Made by a program: the position numbers and the translations under genes. From contig NZ_JACJHY010000022.1 in assembly GCF_014138625.1 (NCBI RefSeq), positions 1 to 64,000 on the forward strand: a stretch of DNA of 64,000 nt, given 5' to 3'. Under the pieces are notes generated by a model. It worked only from the letters and a program-made list of their open reading frames with translations. It was not told where the DNA came from and did not search any database. Position 1 is the first letter of the stretch. Each line of letters starts with the position of its first letter. The stretch is from Aminobacter ciceronei. Lineage in GTDB: Bacteria; Pseudomonadota; Alphaproteobacteria; Rhizobiales; Rhizobiaceae. This document shows, piece by piece, positions 4,156 through 64,000 of the stretch.

Positions 4156-5010
4156 TCAGCAGCTGAATACGAGCACCCGGTCATTGCCACCCAAGTCCTT
4201 GTAATGGGCGGATAAATGGTAGCCGACTTGCTCGAATATCACGGTCACGTCGTGGCGCTGGTCGTGCCCGATTTCGAGCCCGATAAGGCCACCTTCTTCA
4301 AGGTGGCGCCCGGCACCCGACGCGATCATCCTGTATGGCTCAAGACCGTCCGGGCCACCGTCGAGCGCGCGGCGCGGATCAAAATTGCGAACCTCGTTCT
4401 GCAAATCGTCGATCTCTGAAGTGGATATATAGGGAGGATTTGAGACGATTAAATGGTGGCGGCCCTGAATCTCGGCAAACCAGTTGGATTTTTTTGCCGA
4501 AAAGCGTGATGACACGCCAAGAGCTTCGGCGTTGGCCGCGGCGGTCGCCAGTGCATCCTCCGAGACGTCGACGCCGATGGCCTCGGCCTTTGGCTCCTGG
4601 GTGACCAGCGCCAGTGCAATCGCGCCTGTGCCGGTGCCGAGATCGAGGATGCGGCAGACACTCTCACGCACAGCGGTCGCATGGACGAAAGGCAACACGG
4701 CGTCGACGAGTGTTTCAGTATCGGGGCGCGGTTCGAGCGTCTCGGTGGAGAGACTGAGCCGCATGCCATAGAAATCGCGGTAGCCGAGGATGCGATGCAC
4801 GGGCTCGCCGGCGATACGGCGATCGAGCGCCGCCTCGATCTCGGCCACCTGCGCCACAGGCCTGTCGGGCGAAGCAATTGCGTCGCTGCGCGTGGTGCCT
4901 GAAAAGTGCTCGACGAGCAGCCGCGCGTCGAACGCCGCGTCGGCGATGCCCGCACCGGCAAGGCGCTGGCGCGCGTGGCGCAGAAGTTCGCCGAGCGGAC
5001 GCTCAGCCAT
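4156..5010 (-). CDS. prmC: Peptide chain release factor N(5)-glutamine methyltransferase PrmC
   Basis: 284-residue SAM-dependent methyltransferase that methylates the glutamine of the GGQ motif in release factors RF1 and RF2, raising termination efficiency. The SAM-binding loop DLGTGTGA is at 123-130 and the catalytic NPPY motif that binds the glutamine amide is at 191-194; the N-terminal helical domain (1-80) is the substrate-recognition part. Its start overlaps the end of prfA by 8 bases, so the enzyme is translationally coupled to its own substrate RF1. Confidence 0.96.
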
Positions 5011-61912: not shown

Positions 61913-62791
61913 TCAGCGCCGCTGATGGAAAGCCTCGCGGATGGCGTCGGCCATGGCGTCGACGGCTTCGCTGTTGGCGCGCGGATTGCGATGCATGACG
62001 ACCCTGGTCGTGTCGATCGCCCCGAATCCTTCGGCCTCCGTCAGCTCGCGGCAATCCGGTGGAATGTTGCTGCGGGCCATCGGCGCCAGCGCCAGTCCGG
62101 CGGTGACGGCAAGGGAGAGGCCGTTGGTGGTATCGCTGGTGTAGGCGAAACGGTAATCGATGCCGCGCTGCTCGAGTGAGCGAAGCGCATACTCCCGCGA
62201 CCAGCCGTGGCGGGTGTACATGGCAACCGGCAGCGGCCGCTCCAGATGCAGCTGGTGGTGAATGGAGGTCACCCAGACCGTCGGGTCATTCATCAGGACT
62301 TCGGCGCCCGATGGAAATTGCCACTCGAAGACCACGGCAAGATCAAGTTCGCCGGCCGCGAGCGAAGCCAGTTGGGAGACCGAATAGCCGAACCGCACCG
62401 TCACCTCCACCTTCGAATGGCGCTTGGCAAAGGCACCCAGGGCACGCGACAGAACAGGCTGGCCATATTCCTCTGGGATGCCAATGCGGACCGGTCCGCC
62501 AAGCGGCGCCGCGCGCATCGACGACGCCGTTTCATCGAGCAGGGCAACGATGCGGCGCGCATTTCCGACGAGCTCGGTGCCGCGTTCGGTCAGGGCGACG
62601 CCGCGCGCGCCGCGCGTGAACAGCACCTCGCCGACGACCTCCTCGAGGCGCTTGATCTGCATGCTGACCGCGGACTGGGTGCGCCCGACACCTTCGGCCG
62701 CGCGGGTGAAATTGCCGCTCTCGGCAACCGCGAGGAAGGTGCGCAGCAGGTCGCTGTCGAGGCGTGCGGTCATGAAAACGTTTTCAGCCAT
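61913..62791 (-). CDS. LysR family transcriptional regulator
   Basis: 292 residues; winged helix LDSDLLRTFLAVAESGNFTRAAEGVGRTQSAVSMQIKRLEE and effector domain with GPVRIGIPEEYGQPVL. ATG 62791 or ATG 62773 (MTARLDSD). Upstream of GST in the same orientation, so likely its regulator. Confidence 0.9.
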   Translation of the reverse strand: MAENVFMTARLDSDLLRTFLAVAESGNFTRAAEGVGRTQSAVSMQIKRLEEVVGEVLFTRGARGVALTERGTELVGNARRIVALLDETASSMRAAPLGGPVRIGIPEEYGQPVLSRALGAFAKRHSKVEVTVRFGYSVSQLASLAAGELDLAVVFEWQFPSGAEVLMNDPTVWVTSIHHQLHLERPLPVAMYTRHGWSREYALRSLEQRGIDYRFAYTSDTTNGLSLAVTAGLALAPMARSNIPPDCRELTEAEGFGAIDTTRVVMHRNPRANSEAVDAMADAIREAFHQRR

Positions 62792-62828
62792 AAGAAATTC
62801 TAATGGCTGCCATCATTCCAATTCGTTT

Positions 62829-62955
62829 GCATCGTGTCAAACGGCGGGGAATAGTCCCGCTACCCATTGGAAGGTGGTCGCAAGAGATGCGGCTGCGGAC
62901 TGGTAATACCGTCCTCACTTTCACCCGCCGCAATCTTGCCGGCGGGTATTTTTTT
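62829..62955 (+). ncRNA. Structured RNA candidate with rho-independent terminator
   Basis: On the plus strand, between the LysR promoter and the EamA gene. GCATC (62829-62833) can pair with GATGC (62886-62890), enclosing a GCGGG/CCCGC hairpin (62844-62860). A GGAC-GGT/ACC-GTCC hairpin follows at 62897-62914. Then an 8-bp terminator stem (62923-62930 with 62940-62947) ends in seven Ts. It could be a small RNA or an attenuator of the EamA gene 124 bases further. No known riboswitch class matches. Confidence 0.5.
62923..62955 (+). terminator. Terminator upstream of the EamA gene
   Basis: ACCCGCCG/CGGCGGGT stem with a nine-base loop, then A and seven Ts. It is on the plus strand with no coding gene ahead of it, which implies a non-coding transcript. 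Confidence 0.75.
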
Positions 62956-63079: not shown

Positions 63080-64000
63080 ATGCACAACAGAACGCTTCTC
63101 GGCATCCTCTGCCTTTGCCTGGGCGTGCTGGTGTTTTCGATCCAGGACGCGCTGATCAAGGCCGTGGCCGGCACCTATCCGGTCAGCGAAGCGCTGCTGA
63201 TCCGCGCCGTGGTGGCGTTGCCGATCCTGCTCCTGCTGGTGCATCGCGATGTCGGGCTTCCGGCACTCGCCTCGCCCAACTGGCGCTTCCTCGCAACGCG
63301 CTCGACGATCCTGTTCGTGTCTTACTGCGCCTACTACCTGGCGATACCGGCGCTGCCGATCGCCGATGCGGCGGCGCTCTTCTTCCTGACGCCATTGCTG
63401 ATCATGACCATGGCCGGTCCCTATCTCGGCGAACCGGTGCCGTGGCAGAGCCTTGCCGCCGGCACGGTCGGGCTTTTCGGTGTGGTCATCATGGTCAATC
63501 CCGGCGCCGGCATCTTCGAATGGGCGGCCTTGCTGTCGCTCGCCTCGGCGTTTCTCTACAGCTTCTCGCAGCTGATGGCGCGCAAGGTCGGCGTGACGGA
63601 AAGTGCGACGACAATGGCCTTCTACCAGAACGCCGCCTATCTCTTCGGCGCCGTGCTGATCACCACGATCTTCTCGGCCGCCGGCTTCCAGCAGACAGGC
63701 CATCCCAGCCTCGATTTTTTGATGCGGCCATGGATCTGGCCGAGCCTGCGCGACTTCCTGATGATGGGCGCCTGCGGCATCATTGCCGCTGTCGGCATGG
63801 TGCTGCTTGGCCAAGCCTATCGGCTGACGCCCGCCAACAAGGCGGCGACTTTCGAATACACCGGGCTGTTGTGGGCACCGCTGTGGGGCTTCCTGTTATT
63901 CGCCGAGGTGCCCGGAACCGGCACGGTGATCGGCGCGCTGCTGATCGTCGGCGCCGGTATATTCGCGCTGAATGTCGGGACGCGGACGCCTCAGGCGGCG
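63080..64000 (+). CDS. EamA/DMT family transporter (runs off window end)
   Basis: 307 codons open to the window end with no stop. About ten hydrophobic helices in two EamA repeats (LGVLVFSIQDALIKAVAGTYPVSEALLIRA; AAVGMVLLGQAYRLTPANKAATFEYT). The start ATG 63080 has no strong ribosome site. The 3' end lies outside the window but cannot be long. Substrate unknown. Confidence 0.88.
   Translation, partial: MHNRTLLGILCLCLGVLVFSIQDALIKAVAGTYPVSEALLIRAVVALPILLLLVHRDVGLPALASPNWRFLATRSTILFVSYCAYYLAIPALPIADAAALFFLTPLLIMTMAGPYLGEPVPWQSLAAGTVGLFGVVIMVNPGAGIFEWAALLSLASAFLYSFSQLMARKVGVTESATTMAFYQNAAYLFGAVLITTIFSAAGFQQTGHPSLDFLMRPWIWPSLRDFLMMGACGIIAAVGMVLLGQAYRLTPANKAATFEYTGLLWAPLWGFLLFAEVPGTGTVIGALLIVGAGIFALNVGTRTPQAA

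Follow-up and report, generated by a model that had tools for sequence, protein, structure and literature searches.

Small RNAs of the CcsR type come from the 3'UTR of a DUF1127 mRNA in Rhodobacter, as described in PMC8625941. Like CcsR1-4 and ccaF1 of Rhodobacter sphaeroides (CcsR1 is Rfam family RF02791), the RNA reported here is probably linked to a DUF1127 mRNA 3'UTR, a source of small RNAs known from Rhodobacter. The Rfam title for CcsR1 names a CCUCCUCCC motif, which is comparable to CCUCACU in our RNA. Unlike CcsR1-4, however, the present locus has the motif in the form CCUCACU, encodes one RNA rather than four, and belongs to a clade in which the DUF1127 ORF is gone. The CcsR covariance model (RF02791) does not match at the RNA, nor does it match in eight Rhodobacterales relatives at E values up to 1; a weak CcsR1 match in locus L030, at 19.2 of 65.3 bits, is not at the RNA but about 370 nucleotides downstream.

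Other parallels concern the regulator and the mode of action. OxyS is controlled by the LysR-type protein OxyR and reportedly derives from a peroxidase mRNA. Similar to OxyS, whose position beside the gene of its regulator is given in PMC11975290, our RNA is a small RNA beside the gene of a LysR-type regulator; the two systems differ in both regulator and RNA, and the ancestor proposed here is a DUF1127 mRNA. AbcR1 and AbcR2, together with LsrB/VtlR, offer alphaproteobacterial small RNAs with anti-Shine-Dalgarno motifs, comparable to the anti-Shine-Dalgarno-like stretch of our RNA. Control of one AbcR by a nearby LysR protein has been reported (PMC8844928) and denied for S. meliloti (PMC7486931). 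The AbcR system differs in that the LysR protein here is not LsrB; its identity with LsrB/VtlR was ruled out, as the likely LsrB-type LysR paralogue adjoins trxB elsewhere in the genome, lsrB-trxB linkage being described in PMC11975290.

No family reaches threshold at the RNA in an Rfam search, and no AbcR-type family is among the Rfam matches up to E 10 at the locus. The best Rfam score at the locus is that of anti-hemB (RF02837), which likewise has hairpins followed by a U-ended terminator; it was rejected because its 26.1 bits fall short of the gathering score of 49.5; in two Aminobacter relatives it reaches 23.6 and 22.9 bits, with nothing up to E 5 at the eight remaining loci. The suhB/mmgR family (RF00519) was also rejected, at 14.3 bits against a gathering cut-off of 41. 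According to the M. huakuii paper (PMC5596092), little is known about small RNAs in the Mesorhizobium group. None of the 40 candidates in its Table 1 fitted this locus when placed through SAM_alpha and tmRNA positions, as reckoned from gene order in 20 other genomes. Within the accessible portions of the open-licence literature on Mesorhizobium, DUF1127, AbcR2/VtlR small RNAs, or CCUCACUC, we found no mention of this RNA.

The RNA was studied in the window, the whole 64,000-nucleotide stretch of Aminobacter ciceronei DNA that was analysed, where it lies between a lysR gene and a gene for an EamA transporter. The features are as follows.

61913-62791, minus strand: lysR gene, 292 amino acids from the first ATG (Pfam PF00126 and PF03466).
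62789-62805 (centre 62797), no strand assigned: LysR-type box CAT-N11-ATG, containing T-N11-A, identified from sequence.
62812-62840, minus strand: lysR promoter, TTGACA, 17 nucleotides, AATGAT (10 of 12 consensus positions).
62827-62855, plus strand: putative RNA promoter, TTGCAT (62827-62832), 17 nucleotides, AATAGT (62850-62855), at fixed offsets from a shared ATTCGTT.
62861-62955, plus strand: RNA gene of about 95 nucleotides, with its start inferred from the -10 box and the onset of conservation and its end set by the T-run.
62866-62904, plus strand: helix 1, ATTGG (62866-62870) with CTGGT (62900-62904), 99.5% of cells paired.
62874-62896, plus strand: helix 2, 62874-62880 with 62890-62896, 98.6% paired, three pairs double-changed.
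62911-62919, plus strand: conserved stretch GTCCTCACT, complementary to Shine-Dalgarno-type AGTGAGGAC.
62923-62955, plus strand: intrinsic terminator with seven Ts (hairpin 62923-62947, T-run 62949-62955).
63080-64000, plus strand: EamA transporter gene, running off the window (PF00892, E 6.8e-19), 124 nucleotides after the T-run.

Judged by sequence evidence, the conserved RNA gene at 62861-62955 is real. A preliminary description of this DNA had pointed to a strong plus-strand terminator with seven Ts that no coding gene precedes, and this holds: lysR is on the minus strand and EamA starts only at 63080, such that no plus-strand gene runs into the terminator. The terminator has an energy of -17.1 kcal/mol (z -3.93), and equal stability was seen in none of 200 shuffles. 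The interval first proposed for the RNA, 62829-62955, folds at z -2.73 (3 of 200 shuffles); its first 30 bases are probably promoter, and the remainder that stands as RNA, 62861-62955, folds at z -3.16 (2 of 200 shuffles), with about 60 bases of structured RNA 5' of the terminator. A consensus scan for terminators and promoters did not list the terminator at 62923-62955, probably because of the scanner's loop limit; the lysR promoter was the sole promoter listed, and the putative plus-strand promoter at 62827-62855 went undetected by it. The suggestion of a small RNA was supported, as the locus combines the elements of an independently transcribed, terminator-ended small RNA, namely a putative promoter recognised by the conservation of its region, a conserved fold with some compensatory changes, and a conserved intrinsic terminator, and its 3' module is also found without EamA.

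The RNA region is present in all ten Aminobacter genomes and also in further Mesorhizobium-like genera. Covariance model R1, which includes the window sequence itself and matches the window at 62858-62954, was drawn with the terminator helix two columns off (36% paired), a fault that its scores carry; the pair counts given below use the corrected helix. R1 matches 36 of 394 genomes of the family, representing 12 of 109 genera, with six of the 36 matching only at E 1.7e-4 to 8.8e-4. Ten of the weaker matches were examined, including L058, which stops at a contig edge and is unreadable. In the genus coded g73, which is probably Mesorhizobium, R1 matches 107 of 119 genomes (one only at E 2.1e-4). 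At the level of the order, nine of 397 genomes match, seven of them being the window's genome or g73 and two being weak (E 2.1e-4 and 4.2e-4). A DNA search in plasmids and phages gave no match to the region. The sequence CCCATTGGA is present in 10 of 10 Aminobacter rows and 32 of 32 g73 rows.

Three minor observations belong to this distribution. Among the 12 g73 genomes in which an R1 match is absent, seven are small (3.3-4.8 Mb). Weak second R1 matches occur at G226:C257:14148-14234 (E 1.6e-8) and G424:C1:4572570-4572658 (E 1.7e-4), and perhaps represent a second copy. In all 20 g73 genomes examined, one of the two SAM_alpha riboswitches is on the strand of the RNA, at a distance of about 13-23 kb.

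Compensatory changes in relatives, whose absence had been named beforehand as the finding that would count against a structured RNA, were found. Across 41 distinct rows, drawn from Aminobacter, g73 and a single g86 locus, 99.4% of the cells of three helices are paired, compared with at most 51.5% in slid versions, and there are 18 double-change cells against a shuffled mean of 5.5 (0 of 500 shuffles), although the alignment, A7, was fitted to R1 and the pair counts therefore lean towards helices 1 and 2. Helix 1 has one-sided changes (G-U) at three pairs and two-sided changes at none, with CCAAT in most g73 rows. The terminator helix is 100% paired in the 41 rows, and one pair at its foot is double-changed. 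Independent compensatory events are few, since one double-changed pair splits Aminobacter wholesale from the rest and the remaining pairs are double-changed in two to five rows each.

The fold proposed earlier, an enclosed three-way-like structure with a very stable GGAC/GTCC hairpin, is the MFE fold of the window, and RNAalifold also returns it as the consensus for the 10 Aminobacter rows. However, 0 of its 28 pairs are double-changed, and in A. carboxidus (L032) a deletion takes out GTCCTCACT and the GGAC/GTCC hairpin, part of the three-way fold, with promoter and terminator kept. In the window, the three-way fold reaches -39.4 versus -31.0 for the cross-genus fold, so that leaving the motif free, as the latter does, costs 8.4 kcal/mol. 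Bases able to form GGAC/GTCC are present in 39 of the 40 rows that have letters at these positions, a pairing that says little because it hardly varies. A ligand-binding riboswitch or three-way-junction aptamer would be in keeping with the compact three-way fold, seen both in the window and in the consensus for Aminobacter; given that this fold shows no double changes within Aminobacter, that A. carboxidus does without part of it, and that no riboswitch family of Rfam is found at the locus, we consider such an element, and with it a ligand-responsive interpretation, very unlikely.

Scarcely credible, in our estimate, is a small peptide encoded from the ATG at 62887-62889. An ATG does occur near the same offset in 10 of 10 Aminobacter rows, with a Shine-Dalgarno-like GGAAGG upstream (by eye). 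However, loop indels shift the frame, the sequence and length of the product vary (27 to 100 or more amino acids in the stretch read), the reading frames run through the terminator, and the bases right after the ATG (62890-62896) are paired in helix 2.

As a rule, the T-N11-A box of a LysR-type regulator is found near -65 of the target promoter, and LysR-type proteins usually activate a divergent target and repress their own gene. At this locus, the box is centred at about -64 from the inferred RNA start at 62861, hence near -65 at the putative promoter, and overlaps the lysR start region (several relatives suggest a lysR start near 62773). This position would suit activation of the RNA together with self-repression of lysR, and the RNA is probably controlled by the neighbouring LysR protein through this putative T-N11-A site. 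In a blastn search that matched 25 of 297 family genomes, the box falls inside the stretch that the majority of the matched genomes share; at the 114 loci described below, its presence was demanded by the search pattern. TTGNNN occurs at the -35 offset in 29 of 34 rows, which the search expression partly demanded. The -10 offset reads A/GATAGT in all ten Aminobacter rows, and xATAxx in 22 of 26 ORF-less rows versus only one of eight DUF1127 rows, in a comparison in which row L007 is misplaced. A hairpin over the -10 at 62844-62860 has all six pairs in only one of the ten Aminobacter rows, that of the window, and four to five of six in three others; it is probably not part of the RNA, because 62827-62855 holds the putative -35 and -10.

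A search of 84,980 species genomes for the promoter pattern CAT-N11-ATG-N5-CAT-N7-ATTCGTT-N7-TGTCAA yielded 114 loci, which by label belong to Rhizobium, Ensifer, Phyllobacterium, Mesorhizobium, Nitratireductor, Aminobacter, Rhodobacterales, Kiloniellaceae and similar groups; one, oddly, is labelled Exiguobacterium. In 76 of the 114, a DUF1127-type small ORF (found with an HMM seeded from the same loci) is divergent from lysR. Compared with Pfam, eight of these ORFs gave DUF1127 as the best family for seven, two of them above cut-off, and no family for one. The 38 loci without such an ORF comprise 11 that, like the locus in the window, have only the RNA, and 27 with neither ORF nor RNA: 18 Rhizobium-type, 6 Ensifer-type (five with a DUF1127-like ORF by eye) and 3 others. 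At the 18 Rhizobium-type loci (for example L067, L075, L093 and L150), the LysR box and promoter region are kept, and neither ORF nor CCTCACT module was found.

CCTCACT stands directly 5' of the 3'UTR terminator at 11 distinct DUF1127 loci (Nitratireductor, Mesorhizobium MAGs, M. sp. L-8-3 and others), where the terminator was detected by the finder in 4 of 11 and otherwise identified in a separate reading or by eye. Nine of these 11 were also retrieved via the promoter alone, independently of the motif. Two Aquibium loci have the DUF1127 ORF and lack the CCTCACT motif. In Aminobacter, g73, g80, g86, g104 and g108, no DUF1127 ORF was found, with the RNA still present; the M. alhagi RNA is shortened to about 45-50 nucleotides, essentially motif plus terminator. 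The ORF-bearing relatives share the promoter region and, at the 11 loci above, also the 3' module, whereas loci that lack the ORF retain the RNA alone. Its most likely origin is therefore a DUF1127 mRNA, probably a LysR-controlled message that lost its reading frame.

Two trees bear on the number of such losses. A quick tree of 70 LysR proteins places all 27 RNA-only rows on one side of a branch (SH-aLRT 83), requiring one change. A careful tree of 49 of the 70 rows does not resolve the base and calls for two changes, with one change sufficing in 2% of bootstrap trees; the rows dropped from it are L167, L120, L146, L090, L091, L016, all Rhodobacterales, and several Rhizobium and Ensifer. In both trees, the label 'motif' includes the variants of L004, L031 and L032, and L016 was added by hand. 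The ORF was thus lost once or twice, and we favour loss over gain because the DUF1127 state is widespread and is shared by two of the quick tree's three outgroup rows. A relic of the DUF1127 start in the 5' half of the RNA is suggested by two of the 11 loci, L024 and L018, when compared with Aminobacter (1 and 3 of 1000 shuffles), in a test in which the motif-less control L097 itself scored 0 of 300. The other nine loci gave no relic against Aminobacter (48-977 of 1000 shuffles), and none appeared in 22 comparisons with other groups.

A promoter and a terminator might simply have outlived the DUF1127 ORF, leaving a plain terminated transcript that is functionless. The 5' halves of the RNA differ strongly between genus groups, no targets are known, and the motif is lost in A. 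carboxidus, all of which would fit such a remnant. On the other side, the compensatory changes in helix 2 and the terminator among the 41 distinct rows, along with the CCCATTGGA and GTCCTCACT stretches, which hardly vary, speak for selection acting on the RNA, and we therefore regard a functionless transcript as improbable.

Seven of the ten Aminobacter rows carry the stretch GTCCTCACT unchanged, as do 32 of 32 g73 rows and L020; the other Aminobacter rows are two with GTCCTTACT and one, A. carboxidus, in which it is lost. In the MFE fold of the window, GTCC and CTTTC are paired, as is most of GTCCTCACT, and within CCTCACT only TCA is free. Elsewhere, L010 leaves CCTC free with ACT mostly paired, L013 and L061 leave CCTCACT partly free, and L064 and L005 free it only in the middle. 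The RNA would most likely act in trans, its anti-Shine-Dalgarno-like GUCCUCACU pairing with the Shine-Dalgarno regions of target mRNAs. The pattern AGTGAGGAC-N0-10-ATG has 29 sites in 10 genomes versus 13 for the reversed control, although an SD-like pattern before ATG is expected anyway. No target was common to more than four of the ten genomes, and the sites are too scattered for a target claim; they include a fumarylacetoacetate-hydrolase-like gene in four genomes, an Hsp20-like gene in three and an ArsR-like gene in three (named from translations).

The preliminary description had also raised an attenuator of the downstream exporter gene. Of the 53 ORF-less loci examined (26 drawn from several genera, and 27 high-scoring g73 matches, not a random draw), 50 have EamA immediately 3' of the RNA in the same orientation, with 14-210 nucleotides between the T-run and the ATG. 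As an attenuator, the RNA would be the 5' leader of EamA, with LysR turning the promoter on and a signal setting read-through into the exporter. The LysR box and plus-strand promoter upstream of both RNA and EamA would agree with this, as would the six loci with a gap of 14 nucleotides, which leaves hardly any space for a separate EamA promoter. In five of 43 rows, moreover, the terminator 5' arm pairs upstream at a mean of more than 0.6 (L007 and L207, 0.88; L203, 0.75; L004, 0.65; L033, 0.62). However, a conserved antiterminator was not found: mean upstream pairing of the 5' arm is 0.29 in the 10 Aminobacter rows and 0.27 in 33 others, and such pairing costs 7.5-23.1 kcal/mol. The module is also present where EamA is absent, at all 11 motif-bearing DUF1127 loci (with at least about 1 kb of downstream sequence covered) and at three of the 53 ORF-less loci, namely both g80 loci and L059. 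We therefore consider attenuation of EamA rather unlikely as the explanation of the RNA, action in trans being more likely. EamA would have entered after the RNA, as g80 branches first, if the quick tree is right. At L007, L020, L183, L188, L190 and L199, where the EamA ATG is 14 nucleotides after the T-run, there is no clear Shine-Dalgarno sequence by eye.

The explanation that we prefer, with confidence somewhat above even, is a LysR-controlled divergent small RNA, descended from a DUF1127 mRNA and acting in trans via GUCCUCACU. An ancestral LysR-controlled DUF1127 mRNA would have lost its frame and kept its promoter region and 3'UTR module (CCTCACT plus terminator), the direction of change being suggested by the distribution of the two states. 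The resulting short terminator-ended RNA would be transcribed divergently from lysR and controlled by the LysR protein through the T-N11-A box, for which box and spacing are observed and binding is presumed. It would pair by GUCCUCACU with the Shine-Dalgarno regions of target mRNAs, probably with Hfq, and terminator read-through may additionally supply EamA mRNA.

More tentatively, and with more doubt than belief, we propose a single conversion of the DUF1127 mRNA into a free regulatory RNA, in the common ancestor of Aminobacter and the Mesorhizobium group, through loss of the frame with the promoter and an active 3'UTR module kept; the RNA would later have come to serve both as trans regulator and as leader of an EamA gene that had moved in behind it. 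If so, living relatives show the steps: the 3'UTR module behind an ORF, the RNA alone, motif and terminator only, and RNA with EamA. To our knowledge, few small RNAs have a traceable birth, and in this case the stages between a protein-coding message carrying a 3'UTR module and an RNA without any protein seem to survive in relatives. The RNA thereby offers a test of whether the DUF1127 3'UTR carried a function that was kept after loss of the protein.

As a separate observation, a suhB/mmgR match of 26.1 of 41 bits (E 0.33) lies in L122 (Cypionkella) at 4694-4774 on the minus strand. It overlies the end and the 3'UTR terminator of a DUF1127 ORF divergent from LysR, and is perhaps due to chance or perhaps a 3'UTR small RNA.
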